This document shows, piece after piece, positions 5,530 to 47,688 of a stretch of DNA of 54,862 bases. The stretch comes from a bacterium (GTDB taxonomy: Bacteria > Hydrothermota > DG-26 > JAUXAN01): positions 1 to 54,862 of the forward strand of contig JAUXAN010000012.1 in assembly GCA_030619885.1 (NCBI GenBank). Reading direction: 5' to 3'. The position numbers were made by a program, and so were the translations under genes. Position 1 is the stretch's first letter. The number at the start of each line of letters is the position of its first letter. The notes beneath the pieces were generated by a model. That model had not been told where the DNA came from. It made no database searches and was given only the letters and a program-made list of their open reading frames with translations.

Positions 5530-5530
5530 G

Positions 5531-11750: not shown

Positions 11751-11779
11751 TTGACAGTCTGCCATATAAGTATTATATT
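11751..11779 (+). promoter_or_regulatory. Promoter of the lptA-lptB-rpoN-lipA operon
   Basis: TTGACA (11751-11756), a 17-bp spacer and TATATT (11774-11779), with 6 nt to ATG 11786. The upstream ggtcgatttttcttgaca is identical to that before bamA (51621-51638). No Shine-Dalgarno is present, so a leaderless transcript is predicted. Confidence 0.8.
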
Positions 11780-11785
11780 ATAAGT

Positions 11786-29886: not shown

Positions 29887-30751
29887 TTGTGTTTTCCCTA
29901 TCGACCATTGACGATTGATTATTAACCCTTTTTCCCAGATATGCTTCGATTACCTTTTCATTTCTTACTATCTTATTAGGTGTTCCCTCGGCGATTTTCT
30001 GTCCGTAATTTAATACAATAACCTTATCTGAAATACCCATTACTACTTTCATATCGTGCTCGATAAAAAGAATAGTTTTGCCTTCATCTCTTAACTTCTG
30101 GAGTATATCAAGTATCTTCATCCTCATTTCAGGAAAGACACCAGCAGTAGGTTCATCCAGGAGTAGAAGTTCTGCTCCAGTTGCCAGTGCTCTTGCAAGT
30201 TCCAAGAGTCTTCTTTGCCCGTGAGAGAGATTCTCCGCCAAATCGTCTTTCTTGTCTTCAATACCCACCAGTCCAAGATATTCCAATGCTCTATTCCTAT
30301 TTTCTACCTCCTCATTTTTCATAGTTTTTGACTGGAGTAATGCCAAGAAAAGGCTTTCCCCTTTCTTATATTTGGTGGCAAGTAACATATTTTCCATAAC
30401 GGTAATTTGTGGAAACAGTCTGATATTTTGGAATGTCCGCGAGATGCCCATTCTTGCTATTTTGTGAGGAGACAGATAGGTAATATTAGTATCTTTGAAA
30501 TTCACTTCTCCATGCATTGGTCTTAAGAATCCAGACACTATGTTGAAAACCGTAGTCTTCCCTGCTCCATTAGGACCTACCAAAGCATTTATAGTACTTC
30601 TCTCGACAGAGAAGGATAGGTCATCAACAGCCACAAGACCGTCAAACTCCTTGGTCAGATTCTGCGTTTGCAGAATAGTGTTTAGTTGTCGGTATTCAGT
30701 GTTCAGTTCTTGTCTTCCCTGATCACTGTCTACTGATTTCTGACCACTCAT
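29879..30751 (-). CDS. livG: Branched-chain amino-acid ABC transporter ATPase LivG
   Basis: 290 residues. Walker [17 protein letters not shown], the LivG motif [20 protein letters not shown], signature [15 protein letters not shown], Walker [11 protein letters not shown]. The first 28 residues ([20 protein letters not shown] and on) and the last 13 ([12 protein letters not shown]) are encoded by the dispersed 'cagttgtcag' repeat. The ATG overlaps the livM stop (ATGA), with GGGGAGG upstream, so translation really seems to begin in the repeat-derived part. Confidence 0.94.
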
Positions 30752-31617
30752 TTAAAACGATACCTCCCCATTATACCTTGTGGTCTTTTTATCATAAGGA
30801 CTATTAATAAAAGCCCATATATCATCTGTCTTGTTTGGGCAGCAATGGAACTCGGCATCCCCAAAAACCTCAAAAGTTCGGGAAAGACTACAAGGATTGT
30901 TGCTCCAACTATTGAACCGGTAATACTTCCCATTCCTCCAAAGATGACCATCAAGAGAATTGTTATTGACTCCATTACTGTAAAACTTGAAGGGTCGATA
31001 AATGTGATGTAATGGGCATAAAGAGAGCCAGCAATGGCGGCAAAGAAAGCACCGATTATGAAGACCAGTAATTTGTGCTTTGCAGTATCCTTGCCCATTG
31101 CCTCCGATGCGATTTCATCTTCCCTTATAGACCTTAAGATTCTTCCAAACGGTGAATTTACAATCCTCCTCATAACAAATATGGTGACCCATACAAACAC
31201 TCCAACTAAAATCAGATAAAGCCATATTTCTGACAACTGGACACCAAACACTGAAAACTGTGGAATTCCCGGGAGTCCCATTGGTCCCCTTGTAACAGAA
31301 ACCCAATTTTTTGCAATAGAATAGACAATGACTCCCAGCCCAAATGTTGTTAACGCAAGATAATCCCCTTTCAACCTGAGTGATGGGTAACCTATTACCA
31401 CTCCTAAAAGTGCTCCAGCACAAGCCCCTATTATTAATCCTATCCAGGGTGAAACGCCAAAATTCAAGGCAAGCAAACTTGAGACATACGCTCCAATACA
31501 CGAAAAAGCCGCATGCCCAAGAGTAGGGAGCCCAGTATAGCCGACTATTAGATTAAGGCTCAATGTTAATATAATATAGATACCAGATATGACAAGAATA
31601 TGCAGTAAATATTCCAT
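30748..31617 (-). CDS. livM: Branched-chain amino-acid ABC transporter permease LivM
   Basis: 289 residues, about eight TM helices. The diagnostic loop [20 protein letters not shown] and the ATPase-coupling region [16 protein letters not shown] are present, as is [15 protein letters not shown] periplasmic loop, [15 protein letters not shown] (about 118-132), has nucleotides resembling the 'cagttttcag/cagttgtcag' repeats seen in livF, but this loop is naturally variable. It overlaps livG by 4 nt. Confidence 0.94.
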
Positions 31618-32027: not shown

Positions 32028-32915
32028 TTACTTCGTTCCCAAAATCCCTCTTGGTCTTACTAAGAGAAAGATTATCAGTATAGCAAAGGCGATACTATCT
32101 TTCCATCCAGCCGAGATCTTCCAAATACCAAGATTTTCAGCCAATCCCAGAAAAAATCCACCGAACATTGCTCCTGGGATACTGCCAATCCCACCAATTA
32201 TGGATGCTATTATTCCTTTCAAGAGAACACTAAAGCCCATTGTTGGCTCTATATTTGTCTCTAATGAAATAAGGATGCCTGCTGCACCAGCAAGAACAGA
32301 GCCTATGACAAAAGATGCGAGTATAGTCTTTTCAGGATTTATCCCCACAACTGATGCCGCAATAGGGTCATCTGAAACTGCCCTCATCGCCTTTCCCAAT
32401 TTAGTCCTCTGAATAAAGAGCCATAGTATAACTAATAACAAACCGCTAACAACTAATATTAGAATTTGAATATCAGTAATTACCGCTCCAAGGAAGTGAT
32501 GCCCTTCTTTAATTGGGCCGGTTCTTAAGGTAAGAATCTGATTTCCATAGATGAGAGCGATAAGGTTCTGGATAAAGATAAAAACCCCAAAAGAGGCTAA
32601 TAAAAATATCAGATTCGATGCTTTCCTTTGTCTCAAAGGATAATAGACCAACTTATTGATCACTACTCCCAATGCTCCAGCCCCAACTACTCCTACAAAA
32701 ACTGCAAAAATCCATACGAATATTGACACCTGACCACTGACATCTGACAATTGTTCTCTGGCAACTGTATACGCCAGATACGCCCCTGCCGTATAGACAA
32801 CCCCATGGGCAAAATGGAAGAACTTGACGGTCCGATAGATAACCGTAAAGCCTAAAGCAACAAGGGCATAAATGCTTCCTGCGATAATACCATTAACAAT
32901 TAGTTGTGGAATCAT
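32028..32915 (-). CDS. livH: Branched-chain amino-acid ABC transporter permease LivH
   Basis: 295 residues from ATG 32915 (GAGAGG upstream), the usual start at MIPQLIVNGIIAGSIYALVA. About eight TM helices; the motif RAVSDDPIAASVVGINPEKT contacts the ATPases, and GGIGSIPGAMFGG is conserved. A loop, AREQLSDVSGQVSIFVW (about 61-77), corresponds to 'tgaccactgacatctgacaa' on the plus strand, a dispersed-repeat phrase, and is longer than usual for LivH. The livK gene is 12.7 kb upstream. Confidence 0.94.
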   Translation of the reverse strand: MIPQLIVNGIIAGSIYALVALGFTVIYRTVKFFHFAHGVVYTAGAYLAYTVAREQLSDVSGQVSIFVWIFAVFVGVVGAGALGVVINKLVYYPLRQRKASNLIFLLASFGVFIFIQNLIALIYGNQILTLRTGPIKEGHHFLGAVITDIQILILVVSGLLLVILWLFIQRTKLGKAMRAVSDDPIAASVVGINPEKTILASFVIGSVLAGAAGILISLETNIEPTMGFSVLLKGIIASIIGGIGSIPGAMFGGFFLGLAENLGIWKISAGWKDSIAFAILIIFLLVRPRGILGTK

Positions 32916-33040
32916 CCTCTCACCTCTGACAACCAAAAACTAACAGATAACATCCCTACTTTGATTATTTTAGAAAAAGGCTTTGATGATTTAGGCAAAT
33001 AGTTGAGCCTTGCCATACATTCTATCTAACTATGCAATAT

Positions 33041-33874
33041 TTATGTCACGGATATTCCAAGCTTTAGTTCAATTTTTCCCTTCAAAACATCAATAAAATC
33101 GTTGATATCAGGCATTGGTTGTTTTGTAAAGGCAGTTAGCAAATTCTTAATTGTTGATGACCTCTTGTAAACTCTCTTCAACTTATAAATACTCCCTTCC
33201 TTGAACAAATTGTAAACAAAAAATATAGTTGCATTATTTTGGGAGTAACCAAGGTTAGATAAATTAAATCTGTTTACCATATTTTCAAAAACATACCTTT
33301 GAGATATCCAAAATATCTTTTTATTCCACTTTTGTATAACCTGTCCTTTATATAACATTTGGATATATGCTAATTTGATAGTGTTATATGTGTTCATTCC
33401 ATAGTTATATCTATTCTTTGAGACATCAGCTCCATTTAAAAAATCTTTTAGAGCTTCAACCAATTTTCCCGTCTGGGTGGTTGAATCGGTTTGAAACTCA
33501 ACGACACAGAAATCTTCTATTTCACTGCTAATAGGCTTGTGTTTTACCAGAACAAAATCAAAATTTCCAACCTTGAATAATCCAACTTCCTTAAATAATA
33601 GAACATTGTCAGTAGAGCCAAAATATTCATTACATACATCTGTAAAGACTTTGTTACCCTGTAAGAATCTATTTGGGCAGATTGCGATTTTACTTCCTTT
33701 GTGTAAAACCGAGCATACTCCCATTGGAAAAGAAATGGTTCGACTTTGTTTATCACATTTTTTATTCATAAATGGACACCAGAATTTAGTTCTATTTCGC
33801 AGTACCTTTCTGTTTTTGTTTTCAATAGGATATCCAAATATTTCAATCGGATAATGAGAATTATTGCTTGTCAT
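33041..33874 (-). CDS. NotI-like type II restriction endonuclease
   Basis: 277 residues. The N-terminus has a four-cysteine site, C33, C40, C54 and C66 (WCPFMNKKC...GVCSV...CPNRF), and the opening PIEIFGYPI typical of the NotI family, whose cysteines hold an iron atom. The probable catalytic core is D106 (NFDFVLV) and E126-x-Q128 (VVEFQTD), an E-x-Q variant of PD-(D/E)xK. Paired 4 nt downstream of a SAM DNA methyltransferase, as in type II restriction-modification systems. Its target site cannot be inferred reliably; NotI itself cuts an eight-base GC site. Confidence 0.82.
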   Translation of the reverse strand: MTSNNSHYPIEIFGYPIENKNRKVLRNRTKFWCPFMNKKCDKQSRTISFPMGVCSVLHKGSKIAICPNRFLQGNKVFTDVCNEYFGSTDNVLLFKEVGLFKVGNFDFVLVKHKPISSEIEDFCVVEFQTDSTTQTGKLVEALKDFLNGADVSKNRYNYGMNTYNTIKLAYIQMLYKGQVIQKWNKKIFWISQRYVFENMVNRFNLSNLGYSQNNATIFFVYNLFKEGSIYKLKRVYKRSSTIKNLLTAFTKQPMPDINDFIDVLKGKIELKLGISVT

Positions 33875-33878
33875 AATT

Positions 33879-35453
33879 CTATATCTTTCCTTTCTCTAAA
33901 ATTACAATTTCTTCAGGTAAGGGAATATTGTGACCGGTGCTTCTCCGCATCCTGAATAATTCCTTTCTGCAGTTATTATAGCCTATACTCTTAGCCATGT
34001 TTATGAGAATGTCTCCAACAGGAATCAGAACTCCCTTAACAGTTTGGTCACCGACTACAAGTAAGAAATGAGAACCATCTCTTAAAAGCGGATATATTTC
34101 TTTCAAGCATAAATACATATCACCAAAGTATTCTCTAACCATTCGTGGATAATCAAAGCCCCACTTTTTATCTTTAGTTTGTTGGTAAATCTTATTTGAT
34201 ATTTCAATGACATATTGAAAATTATGTATATATTGCTCTGAATTACTTTCTTTGAATATAAGTTTGGTGCTTCCTTTAGCCATCGTTCTTTTTATCTGTT
34301 GAATATCCTCCATGCTTCTCACAAAATCTAACAAGTACAATTCTAATCTTGTCTGCCTTGTATATTCCAGATCATTTGGATAGGGAGGAGAAGTAATAAT
34401 AAAATCTATAGAATCTTTATCAACATATTTCTGTGCGTTTAAGCAGGTATCGTTAATGATTTTTGATTTCCCAAAGTTATTATGTTCCTGTGAGAGTTTT
34501 AAATCATTATACATTTGAACAGTTTTTTTAGAAAATAAATCCCAAAATTCTTCTTTATCACGGAAGGGGTAGAAGGTAGTTCCAGGACATAATGAAACAT
34601 AAGAGGCATCAAAACAGGATTTTGACATAGCCACTAAAAGTAAATTTTTAATTTCTTCATTTTTAACTTGATTTATAATGTCTTTCAATAAGGAAACTTC
34701 TTTTTGTAGAACAGGGCTTAACCATTGGTTGATTTCTTTCTTGGGCATTACTGACATAAAATCGTTTTTGAATTTTATCTTATCTATATCTTTGACACGA
34801 TTCAAAAAAGTCTCGGCTACATTTATGATTGTTTTTTTTAATTTAAGCAAGTCTATATCCCAGGTTGTCTTTACTCTTGAAATAAACGCCATAAGAGGAT
34901 TGGTATCAAAACCAATCGCATCAAGATTAAACAGATTAGCCGAAACCAAGGTGGTTCCACTTCCACAAAAAGGGTCAACGACTAAAGCGTCTGAATTCAA
35001 TCTGTATTCGTTTATTTTTTTTTCAATTAAAGAATACGGGAATTCTTCAAGATAATTATACCACTTGTGTATTATCCCATATTGGTTCAGTTCACTAACA
35101 GTTTGTTTCTTAAAGAATAATGTTAACTGAGCCTTATTATTGTTAAAACTATCGAGAATCCATCTTGAGTAATGTTTATGTTTATAATCGTTTCTTTTTA
35201 TAACTTCCTTGAAAAACTCAATTCTTTCTTCTGGGACAGAGAAAATAAAAGAACCACCCGAAGAATTTGTAATGAATCCCTTTTTTAACAATGAATTTAT
35301 AGCATCTGATAATATTTTGCTCTGCACAGGATAATCGGTGAGCAAAGATAACTCTTCTAAAGTTGTCTGTTTTGCTCTGGCTATGTTTATATAAATCCTT
35401 TCCAGTATTTGAGCCTGTAAGAATGGCAGGTTATTAGGTTTATAAGTTTTCAC
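33879..35453 (-). CDS. DNA methyltransferase (N4-cytosine/N6-adenine) of a type II R-M system
   Basis: 524 residues. An N-terminal winged-helix-like segment (about 30-60, TTLEELSLLTDYPVQSKILS), SAM motif I DPFCGSGTT (160-168), and catalytic motif TSPPYPN (354-360), so motif I precedes IV with a long intervening region that may include target recognition. SPPY suggests N4-cytosine, but N6-adenine cannot be excluded. It lies immediately upstream of the NotI-like nuclease, which it should protect against. Confidence 0.88.
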   Translation of the reverse strand: MKTYKPNNLPFLQAQILERIYINIARAKQTTLEELSLLTDYPVQSKILSDAINSLLKKGFITNSSGGSFIFSVPEERIEFFKEVIKRNDYKHKHYSRWILDSFNNNKAQLTLFFKKQTVSELNQYGIIHKWYNYLEEFPYSLIEKKINEYRLNSDALVVDPFCGSGTTLVSANLFNLDAIGFDTNPLMAFISRVKTTWDIDLLKLKKTIINVAETFLNRVKDIDKIKFKNDFMSVMPKKEINQWLSPVLQKEVSLLKDIINQVKNEEIKNLLLVAMSKSCFDASYVSLCPGTTFYPFRDKEEFWDLFSKKTVQMYNDLKLSQEHNNFGKSKIINDTCLNAQKYVDKDSIDFIITSPPYPNDLEYTRQTRLELYLLDFVRSMEDIQQIKRTMAKGSTKLIFKESNSEQYIHNFQYVIEISNKIYQQTKDKKWGFDYPRMVREYFGDMYLCLKEIYPLLRDGSHFLLVVGDQTVKGVLIPVGDILINMAKSIGYNNCRKELFRMRRSTGHNIPLPEEIVILEKGKI

Positions 35454-35484
35454 GATTTCTTTCGTCCTCTGTTTGCTTTAAATT

Positions 35485-36015
35485 TCAAATTCTATCCCGC
35501 AGATAAGATTCTTCTTGATGTTTTCTAATATATTCTTTAATTTCTTTTGTTGAAAGCTCTCTGGTTACCTTCTGATTGCCAAAAGTTATTGTTGCCTTTA
35601 CTGGAGGTGCTTTTTCAATAAATTCACCAACGGAAAGCGATTGTGTGCCGATAGCATTTCCTGAATATGAAAATGCTGCCACCAAATGTATCTTATCTGT
35701 GGGAAGAATATCGAAAGTATCATTAAATACCATTTCGCCACCTTTTGTAGGATAGAGTGGTAAAGCATCCAGTTTTGAAAAACTAACGACACCTGCACAT
35801 CGCAGTGCTGGTCTCCTTCCTGTATTAACAACATCAACACTTATTGAAGAGACTTTGTGTTCCCACCGTTTAGGATCCCGAGTGTGACCTGTACCTGATA
35901 ATCCGACATGAATAGAAACAATTCGAATTCTTGGAACATCTCGCAATTGCAGATATAAAGCAAAGCTTCCTGCAACAAGTGCTATAAAGCTTACTATAAG
36001 CGAAATTATTAACAC
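35485..36015 (-). CDS. Membrane-anchored hypothetical protein
   Basis: 176 residues from GTG 36015. One N-terminal TM (about 3-23), then an extramembrane beta-sandwich-like domain: IRIVSIHVGLSG, ISVDVVNTGRRPALRCAGVV and LVAAFSYSGNAIG. Unrecognised. A TTGACT-16-CATAAT promoter (36070-36043) within the 150-bp repeat drives it and probably the R-M pair behind it. It may be an accessory membrane component of this defence cassette, but nothing in its sequence shows that. Confidence 0.55.
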   Translation of the reverse strand: MLIISLIVSFIALVAGSFALYLQLRDVPRIRIVSIHVGLSGTGHTRDPKRWEHKVSSISVDVVNTGRRPALRCAGVVSFSKLDALPLYPTKGGEMVFNDTFDILPTDKIHLVAAFSYSGNAIGTQSLSVGEFIEKAPPVKATITFGNQKVTRELSTKEIKEYIRKHQEESYLRDRI

Positions 36016-36040
36016 TTTTTAACTTCCACAATTATAGTTG

Positions 36041-36190
36041 AAATTATGTATACAATGAAACAAAAGTCAATAAAAAAAGCAAAAAAGCTTTCTTTCTCGC
36101 TTTCGCATGAAAGCGAGAAAATTATATTTCTGCTAATGTGGATTTGTGCTCTTTTGTAGTGCTCGATGGGACCTACATACTAAATTCCAG
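36041..36190 (-). repeat. 150-bp hairpin-terminator/promoter repeat, copy A
   Basis: Nearly the same 150 bp as 39198-39347. In the minus-strand (gene) direction: ctggaatttagtatgtaggt, a 12-bp perfect stem with a 4-nt loop (36093-36120, arm tttctcgctttc), a T-rich tract and the promoter TTGACT-16-CATAAT. It lies just downstream of the Pycsar pair and just upstream of the next cassette, so it can end one unit and start another. Confidence 0.8.
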
Positions 36191-36220
36191 CCCCACTCCT
36201 ATCTTGACGATTCAAAAATG

Positions 36221-36952
36221 TCAATCTACCTCCACATACCAATCTGTAGAATAAATAGTATAATAACTACCTGCAAATTTAAAATTATTTTCCTTCTCCC
36301 ACATGTCAACTTGTTCATTCTGCCCCCAAAGGTTCTGTTTGTTTCCATATTTAGCAAATTCTTCGAGATTATCATATACATCCTCCGATATCTTAATATG
36401 ATTTGGAGAAGAAGCAGAATCTCCTAATTTAACTGCAAAATTCACTGGCGTGCCAATCCATAGTAAATCATTATTATTAGGATCTCTTTTCAATCCACTC
36501 TTGACAACCAGAATTTCTCCCCAATCAATACCAATTCCAAAATCTATTTTGTCATATTTACGGAATCTTCCACCTAAGACGTTTGAGAGCATGTATTCCA
36601 TCTGCATAGCAGATATAACTGCCTGACTAACCTCGTTCTTATAATTTCCACCCCAGAAGGCCAATATACTGTCTCCACCAAAACTCCTTATATAACCGTC
36701 ATTTGTTACAGCTATTTTTGAAGCTGTATATAGAAATGACTTGTGGATTTTTGCAACTGTCTGTCTTCTATGAACGTCTAAAATTTCCGTTGACCTCCGA
36801 ATATCAATATACAAAACTGTAGCTTCAATCTTTAACCCTGTATTACCAAAAGTAACGTCCACAACTTCAGGGATATAATCTACCTCGTCAATATCATAAT
36901 CTCCCAATAAATATTCGTCGACCTGCTGTGTTATATCATCTTTTAATCCCAT
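36221..36952 (-). CDS. pycC: Pycsar-type class III nucleotidyl cyclase
   Basis: 243 residues. Class III cyclase core: metal-binding D50 in VLYIDIRRSTE and D94 in SFGGDSILAFW, then DFGIGIDWGEILV and IGTPVNFAVKLGDSA. No membrane, PAS or HAMP part. A cyclase of this type adjacent to the DUF5706-like TM protein is the layout of Pycsar, where PycC makes cCMP or cUMP on phage infection to trigger the effector. Whether this one makes a cyclic pyrimidine needs measurement. It begins 4 nt after the effector stop. Confidence 0.85.
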   Translation of the reverse strand: MGLKDDITQQVDEYLLGDYDIDEVDYIPEVVDVTFGNTGLKIEATVLYIDIRRSTEILDVHRRQTVAKIHKSFLYTASKIAVTNDGYIRSFGGDSILAFWGGNYKNEVSQAVISAMQMEYMLSNVLGGRFRKYDKIDFGIGIDWGEILVVKSGLKRDPNNNDLLWIGTPVNFAVKLGDSASSPNHIKISEDVYDNLEEFAKYGNKQNLWGQNEQVDMWEKENNFKFAGSYYTIYSTDWYVEVD

Positions 36953-36956
36953 AGAA

Positions 36957-37532
36957 TTAACTTCTTACATGAATTCCATCGTAAATAGCAATAATAATTA
37001 ATAGCAACAACCATAGTACTAAGCTACAAAAAAGCCATTTAATGCTTGTTTGGATTTCATCAAATTTTTTTCCTACAATAACTGCATTATTGTAGGTCTG
37101 GTCTGAAAGTTCTTCTATTATTTCTTCCTCAGAGATATTTTTTACCTTATTTTTAAACTCGTTGGGGTTCATTTTAGTGATGGTTTGGAAATAAAACAAA
37201 GATTTTTTACCGGTTTCTACTTTTCTTTTTGGAATAATAACCTTTATAAGATTTACAATGGATATAATCGCAAAGAAAATATAAAGCGCAAACACAATTA
37301 AAACTCCACCTCCACAAACTTTTAGGAATCCATTCCACTTCCAACACAAAGCGATTATTCTAAAAACAATTTTCGCCTGCGTCATCAAAAATCCTAAAAT
37401 TACTAACTCAATAGAGAGAATAAATTTTGCTTTATTATCCGCAACAGAAACAAATCCTATAACTCGTTCGAGATTCTTATAATTCGCCTCAATTTTATAT
37501 TTTAAAGATTTATTATTGTCTGAATTACTCAT
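36957..37532 (-). CDS. pycTM: Pycsar effector TM protein (DUF5706-like)
   Basis: 191 residues. The N-terminal helix carries ADNKAKFILSIELVILGF (about 32-49), a signature of Pycsar effectors of the TM class, then TM helices at about 72-98 and 165-185, with a cytoplasmic linker between. Pycsar TM effectors permeabilise the inner membrane when cCMP or cUMP binds, aborting infection. It is the first gene of a two-gene operon with the cyclase. A consensus promoter lies upstream at 37640-37612. Confidence 0.82.
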   Translation of the reverse strand: MSNSDNNKSLKYKIEANYKNLERVIGFVSVADNKAKFILSIELVILGFLMTQAKIVFRIIALCWKWNGFLKVCGGGVLIVFALYIFFAIISIVNLIKVIIPKRKVETGKKSLFYFQTITKMNPNEFKNKVKNISEEEIIEELSDQTYNNAVIVGKKFDEIQTSIKWLFCSLVLWLLLLIIIAIYDGIHVRS

Positions 37533-37611
37533 TTTACACTCATTCTTTCATCTTAATTTCATATAATGCTGCAGAAAAGAGAACCGTCCCCTTTTTACCT
37601 TGTTATGCTGG

Positions 37612-37640
37612 ATTATACCCCAAATTAGGCTAGATGTCAA
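37612..37640 (-). promoter_or_regulatory. Consensus sigma-70 promoter of the Pycsar operon
   Basis: Minus strand: TTGACA (37640-37635), 17-bp spacer, TATAAT (37617-37612), a perfect match. The leader is about 75 nt and contains 'ggggacggttctctttt', a phrase also in the leader region at 39398-39415. Confidence 0.85.
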
Positions 37641-37730
37641 TAAAAAAACGCTTCTCGCTTTCGTGCGAAAGAAGATTATATTTCTTCCAATACGGATTTG
37701 GGCTCTTTTTGTAGTAGTCGATGGTAGAAA
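37631..37730 (-). repeat. Hairpin/promoter repeat, diverged copy B
   Basis: Shares tgtcaataaaaaa, ttctcgctttcgtgcgaaag (shorter stem), atatttctt and ggctctttttgtagt with copies A and C but lacks the 3' tail ctacatactaaattccag. The rest of the 37533-37849 gap holds the Pycsar leader and no ORF of note. Confidence 0.65.
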
Positions 37731-37849
37731 TAAGTGAGGAGGGAAAAGTGGTAATGGAGTGTTTCTCTATTACTGGAGTCTTCTGGTAGAAGCATCGGCA
37801 AATTCTTTGATAATGGAAAGAACAAGGTTAAACATCTGGTTGGAATAAT

Positions 37850-38809
37850 TTAAGCGATTTTCTCTTTGGAAACAAACTTGTAATACCAGACCACTGGATA
37901 TCCTCGGTACGGCTTCTGGTATACAATGTCAGTTGCATGGAATTTTACACCCCACCGGCTTTGTGGAATTTCACATGCTCTATTCCATAATTCCAACAGG
38001 TAGCGAACATTTCCTCCTCTTGCCGCAAGCATTACACCTTTTGAGAATTTACGAACACTCTGGTTGAAAAAAGACATGTATTCGTCGATGGTCAATTTTC
38101 CTATGAATAGTATACACCATGTTCTATGGCATAACCCCTTTGTGTTTTCCATAAATAGGGACTTGAAGCGCTCCTTTTCAGCATGAGTGGCGTTCCTGCC
38201 TTTTAACTCTTCTGACCATTCGGTAACTATCGGTAATACTATTTCTTCTAATAAAGATTTAATTTCTGGAGGTGGATTTAACACAACTTTTTCACTATAC
38301 TTGGGATCCATTAACTTTGCGATACAATTTCGATTTGATGTTTTTTCAAAGTCCTTTCTCAGTAGGAATTTGACATCTTTATCTACCGATTTCGTTTCCG
38401 ACGCATACCTAAAGGCATAATACTTTGCCAAGTCTTCAATAAAATCTGCATCTAAAAGTTCAATATGGAAGAAGGTTCCTTTGATAGCTTCAAAAATAAG
38501 AAAAGCCCTTTGCTCGGTTGAATTCCTATTAAAAACAAGCAGTGTATCAAGAATTTTATGCCCTCGGATCCGAGATATAACTTTTTTAATAGCAGTTCGC
38601 AAGCGTGAGTAATTGTGACCACTATCTATAATCACATCAGTCTTAAAAGAAACTCCTATTTTTGAAATAGCTTCCGTTTTCCCTATGTCTTTTGCCGTGA
38701 GTTTGTAATATTTCTCTAATCGGCTATCTTCACTCCAAAAAAGAATGAAAAGAAAAGCCGATAGAACAAAGACGACGATAGCGATGAGACTTGCAATAAG
38801 AGCAATCAT
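37850..38809 (-). CDS. Membrane-anchored hypothetical protein of a two-gene unit
   Basis: 319 residues. One N-terminal TM (about 4-27), then a mixed domain: IIDSGHNYSRLRTAIKKVIS, LIFEAIKGTFFHIELLDADF, and a C-terminal helical/aromatic part ending KPYRGYPVVWYYKFVSK. Unrecognised. It starts 6 nt after the zinc-ribbon gene at 38816, so the two are cotranscribed. Their position between a Pycsar and a HEPN gene, each flanked by the same repeat, suggests defence, but no catalytic motif supports a specific role. Confidence 0.55.
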   Translation of the reverse strand: MIALIASLIAIVVFVLSAFLFILFWSEDSRLEKYYKLTAKDIGKTEAISKIGVSFKTDVIIDSGHNYSRLRTAIKKVISRIRGHKILDTLLVFNRNSTEQRAFLIFEAIKGTFFHIELLDADFIEDLAKYYAFRYASETKSVDKDVKFLLRKDFEKTSNRNCIAKLMDPKYSEKVVLNPPPEIKSLLEEIVLPIVTEWSEELKGRNATHAEKERFKSLFMENTKGLCHRTWCILFIGKLTIDEYMSFFNQSVRKFSKGVMLAARGGNVRYLLELWNRACEIPQSRWGVKFHATDIVYQKPYRGYPVVWYYKFVSKEKIA

Positions 38810-38815
38810 AGATAA

Positions 38816-39106
38816 CTACAAAGATATGATTAAGCTTGCGTTCACACAATCAGATTTTGAACAGATGAAGATGGTTTCTGATGGGGTACTTCTTACTGCA
38901 CCTAAATTCTCAAGGGTAACTGTTTCACCACAGACCGAGCACTTTGTGTTTTCATCTAATTTCAAACCGTTGGCCTCTAAAATCTTCTTTTTATCCTCTT
39001 CATCTACAAATCGTATAGGGAGAACTACTTTCTTCCTGCTTAGCTTATATCCGGCAGTAATTCCCGCTATCGCTACCAATGGAAAGATTGCAAATAAAAT
39101 CCACAT
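38816..39106 (-). CDS. Membrane-anchored zinc-ribbon protein
   Basis: 96 residues. An N-terminal TM (about 2-19), then basic residues and a small domain with CSVC (56-59) and a distal pair in FICSKSDC, a likely four-cysteine zinc site. AGGAGGT upstream of the ATG. First gene of a two-gene unit with the 319-residue protein; both put a domain on the cytoplasmic face of the membrane if the N-terminal helix is a simple anchor. Promoter TTGACT-16-CATAAT at 39227-39200 within repeat copy C. Confidence 0.55.
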   Translation of the reverse strand: MWILFAIFPLVAIAGITAGYKLSRKKVVLPIRFVDEEDKKKILEANGLKLDENTKCSVCGETVTLENLGAVRSTPSETIFICSKSDCVNASLIISL

Positions 39107-39197
39107 TTATAACCTCCTTTCTCTTTTAAAATAGCTAATTTATACGAAAAGTCAAGGACTTTGTTTACCTTTAAATCTTGTTTTCACCATTACACTA

Positions 39198-39347
39198 AAA
39201 TTATGTATAGAACGAAACAAAAGTCAATAAAAAAAGCGACAAACCCTCTTTCTCGCTTTCCTGCGAAAGCGAGAAATCCACATTTCTTCTGATGTGGACT
39301 TGGGCTATTTTTGTAGTGCTCAATGGGACCTACATACTAAATTCCAG
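39198..39347 (-). repeat. 150-bp hairpin-terminator/promoter repeat, copy C
   Basis: Closely matches 36041-36190 over its full length. The 12-bp stem (39249-39276) has the same arms and a different loop (ctgc versus gcat). A second small stem, tccacat...atgtgga (39277-39298), is better formed here. The promoter hexamers are identical to copy A. The remainder of the 39107-39425 gap carries 'gaaccgtccccattttact' but no gene. Confidence 0.8.
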
Positions 39348-39425
39348 ATTCCCCTACGGGTCTGCGATCAGTTCAATCCCATCTTAACCATGAGAAAGAG
39401 AACCGTCCCCATTTTACTTTCTATT

Positions 39426-40643
39426 CTATGAAATTTTCTTTCGCTTCCAAGTACCAAATTCTATATAATACCCATCATATCTTAGTATCTTCATGAAAGT
39501 CTCATCCGCTAACCTAATTAACTTTTGATACTCCTCCCAGAAATCTTTCAGCGATATATTCAGCAATCCTTCATGCACAACTACATTTCTGAGGTCAATA
39601 AAGTCAAGGTTATAATCCACGATGCCATATTCGTTAAACAATTTTTCTAACACGTGCCGGAAATCCATTCGTTTTGCAAGTCTTCGTATGTTCTTATAAT
39701 TGCTCTTTAGAGTCTCCATCATTATGGAGGCTAGAAGAAATTTGATTTCCTTGGCAGGATGCCTCTTTGACTCCAAGTAATAACTAATTGCAGTATCGAG
39801 TCCCATCCGCCTTTTCTCCACTTTAAGTTGATCATAACATTTCTCAACGAAATACTTCAAATCTTCTTTATAGCGTGCTCTTGTATCGATCATGCCGAAT
39901 CCCGATTGAAATTCCGTTGTGTAAGCTCTACGAGCGAAGATTTCTAAGAAATTGTTGTTAGAATCATAGGATGTACAATAAACCCAATTTATAATAGTTC
40001 CCTTTGCTAAAGATAACAGCAGACATAGATTCTCTAATATTGATTCTTGCACATTATAATCTATGTCAGTCCTTTCCTCAAATATCACTTCTGCAGTTAC
40101 ATCTACCCCTCCTCTATCTCTGAGGCGCTTCATCACTTCCTTATAGTTCTGAACTTGTGTAATCATAAGACCCCCATCACTCAACTTTGTAGGTATGTCG
40201 CTAAGGCGATACTCTTTCCCACGATATTCTCTAACTTGATAACCATTGTATTCTAGATTTACCAAAGAATAAACTACTTTTGATGTTTTAGATTTATCTT
40301 TTGAGGCAACACTAATCCTAAAGTTCTCAGGATAAATTTTGACTTCAGCTGGACCATCAAAATTTGCTTTTAATCCACCGCATGTGGCGTCATCGATTTC
40401 GAATAAATAACCTTCATCGGTATAACCCTTAACAGTACAGGAAAGTAATGTGGGACTCCCAAAAGAGTTCATAACTTTCTTAAAGATTTCACCAGTTTTT
40501 TGAATCCAACATGAGGCTTCGATGTCTCCTGTGCTATATTGGGTACACTGAAATGTACAATCCTCTTCAATACCTTCTGAGTTAATTTTTCCGCTTCCTC
40601 TGTAAGTATGTAAAATCAAGACAGATTCCGATAGATTTCCCAT
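39426..40643 (-). CDS. HEPN-motif protein, ApeA-like architecture
   Basis: 405 residues from ATG 40643, with GAGGAGG upstream; 40682 is an unsupported longer start. A beta-rich N-terminal half (about 1-195), then a helical C-terminal domain with LRNVVVHEGLL (R352-x4-H357), the HEPN RNase motif. A large N-terminal sensor domain with a C-terminal HEPN domain is the layout of ApeA-type single-gene abortive-infection proteins. The family match is by architecture and motif only. It is a stand-alone gene between copies of the cassette repeat. Confidence 0.65.
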   Translation of the reverse strand: MGNLSESVLILHTYRGSGKINSEGIEEDCTFQCTQYSTGDIEASCWIQKTGEIFKKVMNSFGSPTLLSCTVKGYTDEGYLFEIDDATCGGLKANFDGPAEVKIYPENFRISVASKDKSKTSKVVYSLVNLEYNGYQVREYRGKEYRLSDIPTKLSDGGLMITQVQNYKEVMKRLRDRGGVDVTAEVIFEERTDIDYNVQESILENLCLLLSLAKGTIINWVYCTSYDSNNNFLEIFARRAYTTEFQSGFGMIDTRARYKEDLKYFVEKCYDQLKVEKRRMGLDTAISYYLESKRHPAKEIKFLLASIMMETLKSNYKNIRRLAKRMDFRHVLEKLFNEYGIVDYNLDFIDLRNVVVHEGLLNISLKDFWEEYQKLIRLADETFMKILRYDGYYIEFGTWKRKKIS

Positions 40644-40810
40644 GTTTTCCTCCTCTTTCTTAAAGCAAGTTGCTCGAGTCAATATTTCTCAGCAATGAAG
40701 ATTATTGTTCTACCTTCTGTAATATTATTATCAAATATAGCCAATTGCCCACACTTATTACTTTTGGCTTGTTTTAAATTTCTCGTAATTTCTATTATAA
40801 CTCTTTTTGC

Positions 40811-40860
40811 TTAAATTCCAGATTCCCATACGAGTCGTATGACCAACACGACCCCAAAAT
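40811..40860 (-). repeat. Cassette-repeat tail ('taaattccagattcc')
   Basis: taaattccagattcc followed by a small palindrome, catacgagtcgtatg, and cacgacccc. The same tail is at 36182, 39338 and 41591, giving four copies at cassette boundaries. Confidence 0.6.
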
Positions 40861-40889
40861 CACCTATAATATTGACGATCTTATCTAAA

Positions 40890-41153
40890 TTATTCTAATG
40901 CTTGTATTTCTACAAGTGAAACATTCTTTATCGCATCGTGTGTAATTTTGGTAGCATATCCGTCTGTTAACCTTTTAATTTCCTTATCTTCCTCATCGTA
41001 GACTTCTACAATAACATTTGAAAGTTGTTCTATAGTAATAATCCCTGCATAGAAGCCTGTAACACGATAAGCATTGCTTTCTATATGGCTAATACTTGCA
41101 TTCTCAAGGATACATATTATCTTCTCATTTGCACCATATACTTTTGCCTTCAT
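40890..41153 (-). CDS. Small hypothetical protein
   Basis: 87 residues, unrecognised and strand-rich: MKAKVYGANEKIICIL, YRVTGFYAGIITIEQL, VIVEVYDEEDKEIK. No TM, signal peptide or cysteine motif. A weak Shine-Dalgarno (agggaga) lies upstream. It lies 43 nt downstream of the 125-residue gene in the same direction and probably forms a two-gene cassette with it. Confidence 0.5.
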   Translation of the reverse strand: MKAKVYGANEKIICILENASISHIESNAYRVTGFYAGIITIEQLSNVIVEVYDEEDKEIKRLTDGYATKITHDAIKNVSLVEIQALE

Positions 41154-41196
41154 AAAAATCTCCCTATAAAGATTTTTAAAGACTCATCTGCAAGGA

Positions 41197-41574
41197 TTAC
41201 AAGTTTTCTAACTTTCGTTTTGCCTCTTCTACAATCCTTTTTTCTTCTTCCATCTGTCTGGATTCTTCTGCTTTGGTTTTTGAAATGATTTTCTCATACA
41301 TCTGGTTAGTTTCTGTGACCGCTTTCTCCAATTCTTCTTTATGCTGACGCATATTATCTGAACTTGCAACAACCATCCGAATGTATTTTCCCTCACAGAA
41401 CGCTTTTCTTTTCATTGAATACAGGTGCTCCTTCCAGAATTGCTCAAAGCATTGAATCCATTGAGAATCAGGCTCTTCAGAAAGATCAAAGTAAATTGAA
41501 ACCGCCGATGGAAATGAATCATCCCTTTCTGTTTTTTCCTTATTTACTCCTACAATTTTTATTTCTTTAGCCAT
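41197..41574 (-). CDS. Small hypothetical protein with C-terminal coiled coil
   Basis: 125 residues, unrecognised. A beta-rich first half (VSIYFDLSEEPDSQWIQCFE) and a charged coiled-coil second half ending EKRIVEEAKRKLENL. GGAGGTCC precedes the ATG. Bounded upstream by the 'taaattccagattcc' repeat tail, so it opens a cassette with 40890-41153. Confidence 0.5.
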   Translation of the reverse strand: MAKEIKIVGVNKEKTERDDSFPSAVSIYFDLSEEPDSQWIQCFEQFWKEHLYSMKRKAFCEGKYIRMVVASSDNMRQHKEELEKAVTETNQMYEKIISKTKAEESRQMEEEKRIVEEAKRKLENL

Positions 41575-41669: not shown

Positions 41670-42830
41670 TTAGTAACGAATCGTAGGAATATGATTTTTT
41701 TCAAAATTCCAGTTAAATATTGGTGTCAGACCTTTCGACTGCAATTTGGGCAAATATTCATTAACATCGAAATCATAAGTAGGAAACTGATATCCATCTT
41801 CTCCGAGGACATAGCCGCCAGGGATCGTGCTACAATTAAAAGTGAATAAAGCGCCACCTCCTTTTGCAAGATGGATGCATAAATCAAATTTTTCTCTTGT
41901 ATTAATGAATGGTAAAGTTCTGGGCGAGAAAATGTTATGCACTGCAACTGCGAGTAGAAATTCTTTATCTGACGGAACGAAAGGTGTAGATTGGATTAAG
42001 GCTCCTGCAGCAGGTTTCAGTCGAAGTATACCGACTATAGAAGTTCGAATCTCATAATTATCAAATAAATATCTTTCGTGTTCCATAAGAGATAACCAAT
42101 CTTTCCTCCAAGGTGCTAATCCTGAAAGTACTCCTAAACCAAGATTTTTTATTCCTGCTTCTATCATTCTTTCGAAATCGTCAACACGATAGTTAAAGTT
42201 TGCTTTTGGGGTTTCATCTGGATGCAATTGCTTGTAATATTCTTGTTGATATGTCTCTTGCCATAAAACTACAAAATCTAAGCCAGTTGCTTTTAAAATG
42301 CGGTATTCTTCTACTGTAAAAGGTTCTACATTTATTGCAACCATTCCACCGCCTACTTTATCTAAAATTTTATGAGCAAGTCTGATATGATCGGGTATTT
42401 CAGGAATTATCTTGGGATCACTTCCATACACAAGTTCAACTACTTTTAATCCTTTCTTCATAACCAAATATTCTATTTCTTTTTGAAGTTGATCAAAGGT
42501 TAAACGTATTCTTTTTATCATTTTGTCTTTGTTTTCGATTCTATAGTTACAGTACTTACAATGCTCCCTACAAAAACTTGAGACATAAACAGGAACAATA
42601 GGAAAAACTTTATCCTTGAAAATCTTTTCCTTCATTTGTCTGCTTGTATTTAAAATCTCAGTAAAAAGGTCAACTTCTTTCTCAGGGTCAACGCTGAGCA
42701 AGTTTCCTAATTCCTCAAAGGATAATTTTTCTCCAAACTTGGCCTTTTCAAGAATTTTCTCGACACTCGCTGTATTAAAATTAAGAGACGAAATTCTTTC
42801 TTCCATTTTTCTGACATATTCACTGAACAT
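41670..42830 (-). CDS. Radical-SAM protein of the ThiH/HydG family
   Basis: 386 residues. The radical-SAM cluster motif CREHCKYCNY is near residue 86, followed by the ThiH/HydG-like segments GLKVVELVYGSDPK, INVEPFTVEEY and VVLWQETYQQEYY, and the C-terminal BATS-like region. The second Fe-S motif of HydG is absent, so it resembles ThiH-type tyrosine lyases or tryptophan-lyase-like relatives. No thiamine or hydrogenase-maturation gene is nearby. It is the last gene of a four-gene run behind livK that includes two methyltransferases, suggesting modification of a small molecule. Confidence 0.82.
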   Translation of the reverse strand: MFSEYVRKMEERISSLNFNTASVEKILEKAKFGEKLSFEELGNLLSVDPEKEVDLFTEILNTSRQMKEKIFKDKVFPIVPVYVSSFCREHCKYCNYRIENKDKMIKRIRLTFDQLQKEIEYLVMKKGLKVVELVYGSDPKIIPEIPDHIRLAHKILDKVGGGMVAINVEPFTVEEYRILKATGLDFVVLWQETYQQEYYKQLHPDETPKANFNYRVDDFERMIEAGIKNLGLGVLSGLAPWRKDWLSLMEHERYLFDNYEIRTSIVGILRLKPAAGALIQSTPFVPSDKEFLLAVAVHNIFSPRTLPFINTREKFDLCIHLAKGGGALFTFNCSTIPGGYVLGEDGYQFPTYDFDVNEYLPKLQSKGLTPIFNWNFEKNHIPTIRY

Positions 42831-42869
42831 TCTAACCCTTTAAATTTTGCACGATAAAATTATCTAAAA

Positions 42870-43823
42870 CTATACTGTACATAGACAACCACAGCATTGT
42901 TCTTTTTCAAAAAAGTGAAAATTTGTAATTCTAAATCCATTATTAATTAAAAACTTTCTCAATTTAGACGGAGTAGGTCTAAAGGAAGAAAAAACCTTAA
43001 TTCTTTCTGGAAGCTGTATTTCCAAATTAAGATCTGCATTGGGATGTAATTTAAGCCATTTCTTTACAAGAAAATATACTTCTATCATTGAATGTTTTTT
43101 ATTGTATAAAAATTCAAATTGTTCAGGTCTGGGGTCATAAATCCCGATTAAAGCAAGGCTTTTGGCAAAAAGTTCTAAGATGCAAGGTAATTTATATTGT
43201 TCAATAATCTGCTTTTCTCGGTTTGTTGAATAGACTTCAAGAGTTATAAAAAGTCTATCCTCTGATATCATCGATTTCCTGATATAAGTTAAGACAGAAG
43301 AATTAGAAAGAATTGCTCCATTTGCTATTAATAGAATTATGTTTCTACTTGCACCATTTCGACGAAGATTTTCAATGATCTTAGAAATGTCCGGTTTAGT
43401 TACATCACACACAAAAGACAAAAATTCTAAATTTCTGAAGCATTTTTCCCCATAAGACCTTGTTGTTTTTAACAGTCCCCGACTTATATCTATGAGTGCA
43501 TAATGTGCAATTCGCTGAATACCTAATGTATTTATGATTATTGGAACCTCTATTCCATTACCCGGACCTACGTGTAAAATATTGAAAGGTTTTTTCTCCA
43601 AATTAGCGGATGCAAGGTCCAAAAACCGCTTAAGAGTGGATAATTCTCGTTTTCCCAAGTCATAGTGACCATCTTTAGATATTGCATCCCATGCATTAGC
43701 TCCAGTATCGAGATAAGCAAACTTATGCGGAATTTCGTGCTTTCGTTCAATAGCTTCAATTAACTCGTGCCGCTGAGAAAAAACACCCCGCTCACGCTGT
43801 TTTTCGATCTTGTTATTTTTCAT
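42870..43823 (-). CDS. EgtD-like SAM methyltransferase with cysteine-rich tail
   Basis: 317 residues. A SAM motif I, ILHVGPGNGIEVPIII (near 86), a motif around ALIDISRGLL, and a C-terminal region (IEVYFLVKKWLK, then KVFSSFRPTPSKLRKFLINN) resembling histidine-specific methyltransferase EgtD (Methyltransf_33). EgtD makes hercynine in ergothioneine synthesis; no EgtB is seen. The protein ends EKEQCCGCLCTV, four cysteines in its last eight residues, which could bind metal and is not an EgtD feature. It lies 39 nt upstream of the radical-SAM gene. Confidence 0.6.
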   Translation of the reverse strand: MKNNKIEKQRERGVFSQRHELIEAIERKHEIPHKFAYLDTGANAWDAISKDGHYDLGKRELSTLKRFLDLASANLEKKPFNILHVGPGNGIEVPIIINTLGIQRIAHYALIDISRGLLKTTRSYGEKCFRNLEFLSFVCDVTKPDISKIIENLRRNGASRNIILLIANGAILSNSSVLTYIRKSMISEDRLFITLEVYSTNREKQIIEQYKLPCILELFAKSLALIGIYDPRPEQFEFLYNKKHSMIEVYFLVKKWLKLHPNADLNLEIQLPERIKVFSSFRPTPSKLRKFLINNGFRITNFHFFEKEQCCGCLCTV

Positions 43824-43868
43824 GACAGGACGAAATTTGTAAAATGCAAATTCCTATCTTCTTTATGT

Positions 43869-44864
43869 CTATGCTCTGGATTCGTTCATCTCAGCAATAA
43901 CAGTTTCATGCGTCTCATAGAAAGTAATGTCTTTAAAATTAAACAAGTTAAGCAAACGTTCAGTAGGTGGAAATTTTAAATGTAAATCTCCAATTTTCGC
44001 TGTTTTCTTCTTCCATTCAAGAAGTACCTTTCTATCATATATTGCAATATCAGTTGTATTGAACTGGTAGTCATTTAATTGAGGAATTTCTTTTTTAAGT
44101 TTACTCTGCTTTACGAAACGCAGTTCTATTTTCTTCCCATTTATGCGACAAAACTCATCTAAAAAACGTCTGTTTTCAGGCGTATTTTTGAAACTGATCT
44201 TCCACTGACGATCTTTTAGTATTACAAGTCTTTTTCTTTCAGCAGAACTTTGTAACAGTGATTTTATATGCGGAGGAAATTTTTCGTATGGCAATTGTTT
44301 CCCATTTTTAACCTGATTAAAATCAACCTTGTTCAACAATATTTTGAACCACTCTTCAGGAGTAAATGGCGAAGTTAAAAAAATACAATTCTCACTTTCA
44401 GGATAGAGACCCATCGTAAATTCAGAATATTCTTGACTATTGAAGTCTTTCAACACTATTTCGTTGATACATTCTGGATAGCCAAATTCCGCACCTATCT
44501 TTTTTGAAATAAATTTCGAAATTACCCATTTAACTTTTCCAAAATGCTCATTGCTAAGCGGTTCGATTATTCCCTCAAATGAGCCATTTTTCGTATATAA
44601 AGCCGTATATTGACATATATTCTCCATCCGTTTATCAATATTTTCGTCGACTCTTTTAAGAAATTCTGTTCTTTCTTTTTTTCGTTTCCTTATATCTTTG
44701 TAATACTCAACAGCGATAAAACCAAAAAATCCCCATAATATCGCCGAAGATATAGCTACCTTTAGACTTATCTCAGATACGAGCCAACCGCCTACCCCAG
44801 CTGCAATAAACCCTACAATAATACTCACTGCCAATTCTTTTATATCAAATTTCTCATCAGCCAT
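43869..44864 (-). CDS. Two-TM membrane protein, function unknown
   Basis: 331 residues from ATG 44864 (GGAGG 5 nt upstream). Two TM helices (about 10-30 and 36-53), then a cytoplasmic domain of about 275 residues with a coiled start (RKRKKERTEFLKRVDENIDK) and mixed strands (CIFLTSPFTPEEWFKILL, KRLVILKDRQWKISFK). Unrecognised; a distant phospholipase-D-like fold cannot be excluded but no HKD motif is present. It starts 2 nt after the methyltransferase stop, so the two are coupled. Confidence 0.6.
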   Translation of the reverse strand: MADEKFDIKELAVSIIVGFIAAGVGGWLVSEISLKVAISSAILWGFFGFIAVEYYKDIRKRKKERTEFLKRVDENIDKRMENICQYTALYTKNGSFEGIIEPLSNEHFGKVKWVISKFISKKIGAEFGYPECINEIVLKDFNSQEYSEFTMGLYPESENCIFLTSPFTPEEWFKILLNKVDFNQVKNGKQLPYEKFPPHIKSLLQSSAERKRLVILKDRQWKISFKNTPENRRFLDEFCRINGKKIELRFVKQSKLKKEIPQLNDYQFNTTDIAIYDRKVLLEWKKKTAKIGDLHLKFPPTERLLNLFNFKDITFYETHETVIAEMNESRA

Positions 44865-44866
44865 TT

Positions 44867-45622
44867 TTACCTCCATTTCTTTGAAATTATTTCCACAATT
44901 CGGTACAACATGATATATCGATCTCCCTCTTTGTAGAGCCGTAATTCTTTATGAACTTTTTCACTCAAATTAAGAAAAGCGTTAATAATCCGTTCTTGGA
45001 TATTTTCAGGTGCAATAGCAGCCCATTCCTGAATGACACGAGGCAGTGTGTATGTGTAAATAACTTCCATTAAAAAACTGTTACTTTCTAAAAGGTCACA
45101 ATAATCATGAAAAGTGTAATAACCTCTAAAGTCGCTCTCTCTTATCCTACTTAGGGGAGCTAACTCGCGTATTGCTGTTTCAGAAAAACAAAAATCCATA
45201 AGAACAAAGAATCCTTCCTTTTTAAGCACACGATGAACTTCACCTAAAACCTTGATAGGGTCATCAAAATGGTGAATTGCTGCTCGGCAAGTTACAACAT
45301 CGAATGATTCGTCAGGAAATTTGAGTTTATGGGCGTCCATTTGGAAAAACTGAATATTTTTTATGTTTTCTCTTGCTGCTTTAATTTCCGCAGTCTTCAA
45401 GCATTTTGGCTCACTGTCAATTGAGACAACCTTTTTAAAATGTTTGGCGAGTGTAAAAGCAGTGTATCCACTACCCGTCCCAATATCTAATGATTCATTT
45501 AAATTATTGAAATATGGAATCACCTTTTGTTCAAAAATCTCAGATGCCTTCCGAAGCGATTTTTCTCTTTCTCGGAACATCTTTTCTATATGTTTCTGCC
45601 TCTTTGATTCTTTTTGGCACAT
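44867..45622 (-). CDS. Class I SAM-dependent methyltransferase
   Basis: 251 residues. Motif I LDIGTGSGYTAFTLA (about 45-59), the acidic-loop motif VVSIDSEPKCL, motif II FDVVTCRAAIHHFDD and post-II VLKKEGFFVLMDF make a Methyltransf_11/UbiE-like enzyme. The C-terminal third is variable and probably sets substrate. It begins 3 nt after the livK stop, so it is tightly linked to the binding-protein gene rather than to a separate promoter. Substrate unknown. Confidence 0.85.
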   Translation of the reverse strand: MCQKESKRQKHIEKMFREREKSLRKASEIFEQKVIPYFNNLNESLDIGTGSGYTAFTLAKHFKKVVSIDSEPKCLKTAEIKAARENIKNIQFFQMDAHKLKFPDESFDVVTCRAAIHHFDDPIKVLGEVHRVLKKEGFFVLMDFCFSETAIRELAPLSRIRESDFRGYYTFHDYCDLLESNSFLMEVIYTYTLPRVIQEWAAIAPENIQERIINAFLNLSEKVHKELRLYKEGDRYIMLYRIVEIISKKWR

Positions 45623-45625: not shown

Positions 45626-46777
45626 CTACTTACCTGAACTATAATCTACAAATACACCATTCCTAACTGTCATAAACCTCAAGGGTTTTACTACATCGCC
45701 TTTTTCATCGAATGAGGTTAGCCCGGACACACCTTCAAAATTTTTCACTTTAGCTATCTCAGCTTGTATCTCAGAACCAGTTTTTGCACCTTTCTTAAGG
45801 GCCAGAGCAACAACATTCATAACATCATACGCTTGAGCTGACCAAATATCCGGTTTCACTCCATATTTGGCTTCGTATTCCTTAACATATGTTTCTACGA
45901 TCTTGGTTGGACTTCCAGGATCAAAAATTGGTGCAGTAAAGATTGCATCCTCAGCTGCTTTCCCAATCTCTTGAAGTATCTGAGGGTCATAAAAACCGTA
46001 AGTGCTTAGAAGTTGTATTTTTATTCCCATTTCCTCTTTTTGCCTTAGTAAAATTAATAGTTCTTTAAGATACCCAATTATGTATATTGCTTGAGGTTTG
46101 GCTTTTAAGATTTTGGTTAATTGCGTTCGGAAGTCAGATGCGCCTTGGTCAAAACTTTCTTTTACAACTATAGAACCGCCTCCTCTTGTAAACGACTTCT
46201 CGAACTCTTTTGAAAGTCCTACTCCCCAATCATTGTTCACATAGAGAATAGCTACCTTACTTAGTTCTAAAGTGTCCGCAGCGAATCTCCCCATTACTAA
46301 ACCCTCATAAACATCAGAAGGCCAATTTCTAAAGAAGTATTCACTGATACCGGTAAGTTTTGGAGAGGTGGCAGCCGGTGAAAATAGTACTACTTTTTCT
46401 TTGTCAGCGATGGGAGCTACTGATAAAGCACATGCACTGATAGCACCTCCAATAATAGCAGGGACTTTTTCTGTAGTTATTAGTTTTCTGAAAGCCGCTA
46501 CAGAACTTTTGGGGTCTCCCTGATCATCTTCGTAAAGCACGACTAATTTCTTGGTTTTGATACCTCCGCTTTTATTTATTTCTTCTACTGCGAGGTCAAT
46601 GCCGTTTTTCATTTTTTGTCCATATACGGCAATGTCCCCCGTCAATGGCAATATTACTCCAATCTTTATCTCCTCTGACTGTTTTTTGCAGCCGATAAGG
46701 GTTGCTCCTGTGACAAAAAACACTGCAATAAGCAGTGCAGTTGTCAGTTGTTTGATATTAGTTGTTAGATGCTTCAT
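45626..46777 (-). CDS. livK: Branched-chain amino-acid ABC transporter binding lipoprotein LivK
   Basis: 383 residues. A hydrophobic segment and lipobox LIGC (cysteine near residue 30) precede a Peripla_BP_6-type domain: IKIGVILPLTGDIAVYGQKM, IIGGAISACALSVAPIADKE and SPAATSPKLTG. The first residues, HLTTNIKQLTTA, come from a 'gttgtcagttgtttgatatt' stretch belonging to the dispersed-repeat family. Other Liv genes are 12.7 kb downstream. A hairpin followed by AAGGAGG lies right before the ATG. The ligand may be a branched-chain amino acid or another amino-acid-like compound. Confidence 0.92.
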   Translation of the reverse strand: MKHLTTNIKQLTTALLIAVFFVTGATLIGCKKQSEEIKIGVILPLTGDIAVYGQKMKNGIDLAVEEINKSGGIKTKKLVVLYEDDQGDPKSSVAAFRKLITTEKVPAIIGGAISACALSVAPIADKEKVVLFSPAATSPKLTGISEYFFRNWPSDVYEGLVMGRFAADTLELSKVAILYVNNDWGVGLSKEFEKSFTRGGGSIVVKESFDQGASDFRTQLTKILKAKPQAIYIIGYLKELLILLRQKEEMGIKIQLLSTYGFYDPQILQEIGKAAEDAIFTAPIFDPGSPTKIVETYVKEYEAKYGVKPDIWSAQAYDVMNVVALALKKGAKTGSEIQAEIAKVKNFEGVSGLTSFDEKGDVVKPLRFMTVRNGVFVDYSSGK

Positions 46778-47331: not shown

Positions 47332-47688
47332 TCATATCTCAATCTCCAGTGTGAAAAGCAAGGTCCTTTCAACCTCGGATATTTTTTCTTCAGAGAGATC
47401 TCCTATCCTTTTTGTCAGTCTTGCATTGTCTAACGCCCTTATTTGATGACATAATAATACCGAGTCTTCTTCTAATCCATTATCTTTATTTTTCTCAACG
47501 AATACAGTAAAAGGCCACCTTTTCCTTTTAACAGTTTTTGTGAAAGGGATAGCTACTACACTTCGTACACGGTCTGTCACAGTATTATTCTGAATTATTA
47601 AAACAGGACGAAATACTCCTTTAATTTCACTTCCTTTCACAGGTTCGAGATTTGCTCTGTATATCTCGCCTCTTTTAGGTCTCTTCAC
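47332..47688 (-). CDS. MazF/PemK-family endoribonuclease toxin
   Basis: 118 residues. The fold signature KRGEIYRANLEPVKGSEIKG, RPVLIIQNNTV, VVAIPFTKTV and the catalytic-loop VLLCHQIRALDNARL (with the Arg/Ser/Thr residues of the active site) are present. MazF cleaves mRNA at short motifs. It overlaps the upstream 271-residue gene by 14 nt. No MazE AbrB-type gene is adjacent; the antitoxin would be one of the two upstream genes. Confidence 0.92.
   Translation of the reverse strand: MKRPKRGEIYRANLEPVKGSEIKGVFRPVLIIQNNTVTDRVRSVVAIPFTKTVKRKRWPFTVFVEKNKDNGLEEDSVLLCHQIRALDNARLTKRIGDLSEEKISEVERTLLFTLEIEI

Follow-up and report, generated by a model that had tools for sequence, protein, structure and literature searches.

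A methyltransferase and radical SAM gene module inside a split liv operon: a possible amino-acid tailoring system

Directly behind livK, the gene of an amino-acid binding protein, four genes raise the question of whether an imported amino acid is modified by enzymes encoded next to its transporter, and if so, which amino acid; two of them encode relatives of the tyrosine lyases ThiH and HydG and of the histidine methyltransferase EgtD. They lie in a stretch of DNA of 54,862 nucleotides, referred to here as the window.

Layout of the module and of its host operon

According to the initial annotation, a class I methyltransferase, a protein with two transmembrane segments (2TM protein), an EgtD-like methyltransferase with a cysteine-rich tail and a ThiH/HydG-family radical SAM enzyme are encoded from 3 nt after livK; the arrangement is borne out by the positions of the open reading frames and the labels by profile matches and hydropathy (Table 1). 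The minus-strand order is livK–methyltransferase–2TM–EgtD-like–radical SAM, with computed gaps of 3, −10, 45 and 39 nt, and a consensus scan found no terminator-like sites in the gaps between livK and the module genes; the arrangement is consistent with a single transcript covering livK and the four genes. The solved relatives of the livK product in a PDB sequence search are LivJ/LivK-type proteins (best 3td9, E 5e-52). The permease genes livH-M-G-F resume about 8.7 kb after the radical SAM gene, and the four module genes therefore sit inside a split liv operon. The livK-to-livH interval, or slot, spans 12.7 kb and holds, after the module, further cargo that is not judged part of it.

Table 1. 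Features of the window discussed in the text.
Feature	Position	Strand	Remarks
livK	45626-46777	-	lipoprotein-type periplasmic amino-acid binding protein, Peripla_BP_6; PF13458 229 bits
Class I SAM methyltransferase (Methyltransf_11)	44867-45622	-	251 aa; Methyltransf_11 96 bits
2TM protein	43869-44876	-	335 aa; hydrophobic segments 10-28 and 38-56
EgtD-like (PF10017) methyltransferase	42870-43823	-	PF10017 58.3 bits; ends CCGCLC
ThiH/HydG-family radical SAM enzyme	41670-42830	-	386 aa; CREHCKYC motif
Further slot cargo	33041-41574	-	125-aa and 418-aa proteins, o96/o319, Pycsar cyclase and PycTM, o176, type II methyltransferase, NotI-like restriction endonuclease
o319	37850-38809		319-aa protein
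Pycsar cyclase (PycC) and PycTM effector	36221-37532		pair within the livK-livH slot
NotI-like restriction endonuclease and type II DNA methyltransferase	33041-35453		directly before livH
livH	32028-32936	-	permease; BLAST to livH of L071, L074, L075, L077 and L021: 43-84% identity
livM, livG, livF	29113-31617	-	livM shares 87-90% identity with its counterparts in two further families of the phylum
PemK/MazF-like toxin gene	47332-47688		upstream of livK

Within the further cargo, the Pycsar genes form a cyclase-effector pair and the NotI-like gene stands beside that of the DNA methyltransferase. The o319 protein has one N-terminal transmembrane segment and no Pfam family; its relative in genome G036 (contig L071, 5320-6294) is 76% identical and is also encoded in the livK-livH slot. 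Upstream of livK, the toxin gene overlaps that of a 271-aa protein assigned to no Pfam family.

The 2TM protein combines two transmembrane segments (by hydropathy), a coiled coil and a soluble domain with the conserved pattern EYSEF..LYPE....I.LTSPFTP.EW. It has no Pfam match above the cut-off, a PDB sequence search gave chance matches only, and its AlphaFold model, built from a two-sequence alignment, reached a pLDDT of 47, too low to be of use.

A second copy in Cloacimonadota

In a scan of species genomes the sole relative of the radical SAM protein beyond the HydG/ThiH level was found on L021, a contig of 7.3 kb that was binned as Cloacimonadota. Its gene order is methyltransferase, 2TM-EgtD fusion, radical SAM, livH, an AbiE-type pair and livM, and the four genes that the initial annotation expected to co-occur elsewhere are thus together in a second phylum. 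The contig begins inside the methyltransferase gene, which is truncated and 61% identical to that of the window. The fusion protein of 713 aa is 28% identical in its 2TM part (BLASTP) and 35% in its EgtD-like part; it implies that the 2TM protein may act as the membrane partner of the EgtD-like enzyme. The radical SAM gene (2715-3728; 38% identical by tblastn) is broken by frameshifts, which reflect either low-coverage assembly or sequencing error, or decay. The pair between livH and livM (4984-6811) is of the AbiEi/AbiEii toxin-antitoxin type. L021 was considered as a possible contaminant of its bin: its tetranucleotide correlation is 0.89-0.97 with the other contigs there and 0.90 with the window, values compatible with either view, and its GC content of 0.286 is slightly under the 0.31-0.34 of those contigs.

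Among 147 genomes from the window's phylum and 125 Cloacimonadota genomes, no further copy of the EgtD-like gene was found; weak PF10017 matches in G002 and G068 were not counted as members, the G002 frame reading as an ordinary methyltransferase. The 2TM protein was not found in the other genomes of the window's phylum, save for one short marginal match. Viral contigs yielded no relatives and plasmids no EgtD-like ones; what the radical SAM protein matches in phages and plasmids is HydG, ThiH or unannotated proteins related to it at about 25-33% identity. The module, known from two instances only, is rare, but its presence in the same order in a second phylum is more than chance; since the EgtD-like and 2TM genes are missing from nearly all genomes scanned, it is sporadic and was probably transferred.

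Substrate pockets of the two putative amino-acid enzymes

The best NCBIfam matches of the radical SAM protein, ThiH (TIGR02351, 195.6 bits) and HydG (TIGR03955, 158.9 bits), stay well under the equivalog cut-off of 380 and the cut-off of 312, respectively, and the NosL model (TIGR04158) gives 38.9 bits against 400. In a maximum-likelihood tree the window and L021 proteins, the latter as a row assembled from its reading frames for this purpose only, form a clade of their own with support 100/99, and the ThiH group (99/99) and the HydG group stand separately; the program warns of long branches, and the tree does not fix the exact neighbour of the clade. No match to ThiG and no second ThiH/HydG were found in the window's genome (G000, 97% complete). 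The tight grouping with ThiH beside a thiamine pathway that the initial annotation had considered is therefore not what tree and genome contain.

In ThiH the amine and carboxylate of tyrosine are bound by R300 and E158, and the phenolate site consists of T299, S318, S321 and R306 (PMC9046217). In the window protein the radical SAM cysteine ligands C87, C91 and C94 (CX3CX2C) are present and R300 is kept as R312, while by alignment the phenolate site is changed: R306 is replaced by C318, S321 by C333 and S318 by T330. T299 corresponds to T311 (Ile in L021). Both pocket cysteines also occur in L021; together with the three cluster ligands they account for all five cysteines of the window protein. 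The position of E158 is occupied by N167, an asparagine as in HydG, and in the alignments the compensating position 128 carries no acidic residue. Because R312 is kept, the enzyme probably acts on an amino acid; because of the changed phenolate-site residues, the separate clade and the lack of ThiG and of a second ThiH/HydG, it is most likely not a tyrosine lyase.

With ThiH the protein shares the radical SAM fold family, its length, the CX3CX2C and QETY motifs and the Arg300 equivalent, but the identity is 24-29%, the equivalents of Arg306, Ser321 and Glu158 are Cys, Cys and Asn, and there is no thiazole pathway. The HydG sequences are its best database matches (about 30% identity) and share the Asn at the Glu158 position; they are, however, longer (about 470 aa) through a C-terminal extension that the module protein lacks, and separated from it by the phenolate-site changes and in the tree. 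NosL belongs to the same lyase superfamily and likewise lacks the Arg306 of ThiH, but no thiopeptide cluster surrounds the module.

The EgtD-like protein exceeds the PF10017 gathering cut-off of 23 bits and falls far short of the EgtD equivalog model (TIGR03438, 39.5 bits against 290.9). It was aligned by MAFFT with 4uy6, an EgtD of known structure, and six EgtDs encoded on plasmids, and residue roles other than that of Glu282 were taken from PMC8593015. Tyr39, Tyr56 and Tyr206 of EgtD are kept in both copies (Y37, Y54 and Y210), and Ser284 corresponds to S280 and Asn166 to N168 by MAFFT or N174 by profile alignment, the equivalents of Ser284 and Asn166 being alignment-dependent. In established EgtD structures Glu282 is located on the imidazole side of the histidine pocket. 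It is present in every EgtD of the alignment (4uy6 and the six from plasmids); in the module protein it is replaced by F278 by MAFFT, or by Lys/Arg if the segment is shifted by two to match FRP, and is lost either way. The amino-acid backbone site thus seems preserved, in contrast to the histidine site. PDB sequence searches gave chance matches only and the AlphaFold model from a two-sequence alignment had a pLDDT of 36, and the pocket assignments in both enzymes are read from low-identity sequence alignments. EgtD and EanA, its counterpart in anaerobic ergothioneine synthesis, share with the module protein PF10017, the SAM motif and the backbone-binding residues; it differs from them in the lost Glu282, the CCGxLC tail conserved in the window and L021, the link or fusion to the 2TM protein and the absence of an EgtB/EanB gene from the cluster.

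The suggestion that the known substrates could be carried over, histidine from EgtD and an aromatic amino acid (tyrosine) from ThiH, does not hold, as both copies carry altered residues at the imidazole- and phenolate-binding positions. An ordinary thiamine ThiH and an ergothioneine EgtD that are neighbours by chance would explain the superfamily matches, but scores far under the curated cut-offs, the lack of ThiG, the altered specificity residues and the separate clade of the radical SAM protein make this extremely improbable, and both readings were rejected. The altered pockets suggest instead that the product would be an undescribed amino-acid derivative, neither vitamin B1 nor ergothioneine.

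Variable slot cargo and the possible role of the module

The liv operon of the window has relatives in other families of its phylum. Compared with G036, livH, livM, livG and livF are 75, 90, 72 and 73% identical and livK only 38%, and the slot genes differ except for o319. In G081 the slot holds genes of a SPASM radical SAM enzyme with weak matches to viperin models and of a multi-transmembrane protein (L075, 2643-4537), and in G138 it encodes a 518-aa protein that matches no Pfam family. Across families of the phylum livM is 65-90% identical (L071, L074, L075, L076 and L077, from G036, G007, G081, G138 and G072), and the genes preceding livH differ among these five loci. In G142 a gene of a lysine-2,3-aminomutase-like radical SAM protein adjoins livK (L078, 2853-4103), and a 1080-aa tubulin-like protein is encoded near the same liv operon (10036-13278).

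The liv operon of these loci seems to be horizontally mobile and its cargo interchangeable. Two descriptions fit: a constant permease before which livK and cargo are swapped as a cassette, or a slot that is an insertion hot spot. Identities of 72-90% for livHMGF against 38% for livK, together with differing cargo, are expected if the ligand specificity of livK travels with the cargo. Binding-protein genes are often fast-evolving, and this alone could explain the divergence of livK. Since sister operons hold unrelated genes in the same slot, the adjacency to livK is weaker evidence than it looked, and the tie of the module to the transporter may be merely positional; the arguments for and against are finely balanced. 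Uptake and modification of an amino acid, as initially proposed, is still the best reading, though an inferred one.

The reading preferred here, held tentatively and at somewhat less than even probability, is a transport-coupled module in which an amino acid other than histidine or tyrosine undergoes N-methylation and a radical transformation. LivK and LivHMGF would import an amino acid. With the 2TM protein as its membrane anchor, the EgtD-like enzyme would methylate an alpha-amino group of a substrate whose side chain is non-imidazole and probably hydrophobic or aromatic. The radical SAM enzyme would form an amine-centred radical on an amino acid, so that a C-C bond is broken or rearranged, with the two pocket cysteines predicted to occupy the phenolate-binding place of ThiH. 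An intermediate would be methylated by the Methyltransf_11 enzyme.

If the slot is an insertion hot spot in which accessory genes, often of a defence type, accumulate, the module would be a passenger unrelated to uptake; it may serve in defence or signalling, with its effector being the 2TM protein. The Pycsar genes, the NotI-like endonuclease and the type II methyltransferase in the same slot, the AbiE-type pair in L021 and the different slot genes of G036, G081 and G138 argue for it. PADLOC, however, gave no match for the 2TM, EgtD-like and radical SAM proteins, its sole module match being to a generic methyltransferase; the module directly abuts livK or livH in two separate liv lineages, and small-molecule enzymes of such a kind are unusual for defence, so that this explanation, though a serious one, is rather unlikely. 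The operon might also be a sensing device whose slot takes up varied signal-processing units, here one that makes an amino-acid-derived signal for which the 2TM protein would be the sensor. The genes of response regulators that lie close to livH in G009 and, judged by sequence, at related liv loci, the SPASM enzyme and multi-transmembrane protein of G081 and the conserved 2TM soluble domain, which is not an obvious enzyme, are in keeping with this, but that domain has no Pfam match above the cut-off and only chance matches in the PDB, and the liv genes of the G009-type loci are more distant, which leaves it improbable.

The tailoring reading can be extended to a mobile cassette of a solute-binding protein and tailoring enzymes, exchanged before a constant livHMGF and making, in this case, a new metabolite from an amino acid by alpha-N-methylation and radical C-C cleavage with two pocket cysteines that the known tyrosine lyases ThiH and HydG lack; this is an unlikely proposal, if slightly less so than the sensing device. 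Literature searches, which covered open-licence papers, found no matching cluster, in agreement with the initial annotation. As the enzymes belong to known superfamilies, the novelty rests in their combination and altered pockets. Two purified proteins would suffice to test what the altered pockets predict, namely an enzyme of the EgtD type whose substrate is an amino acid other than histidine and one of the ThiH type with cysteines replacing the phenolate site. If livK and cargo are indeed swapped together, one locus would reveal both the identity of a ligand and the chemistry that tailors it, which would aid the assignment of both in uncultured phyla.
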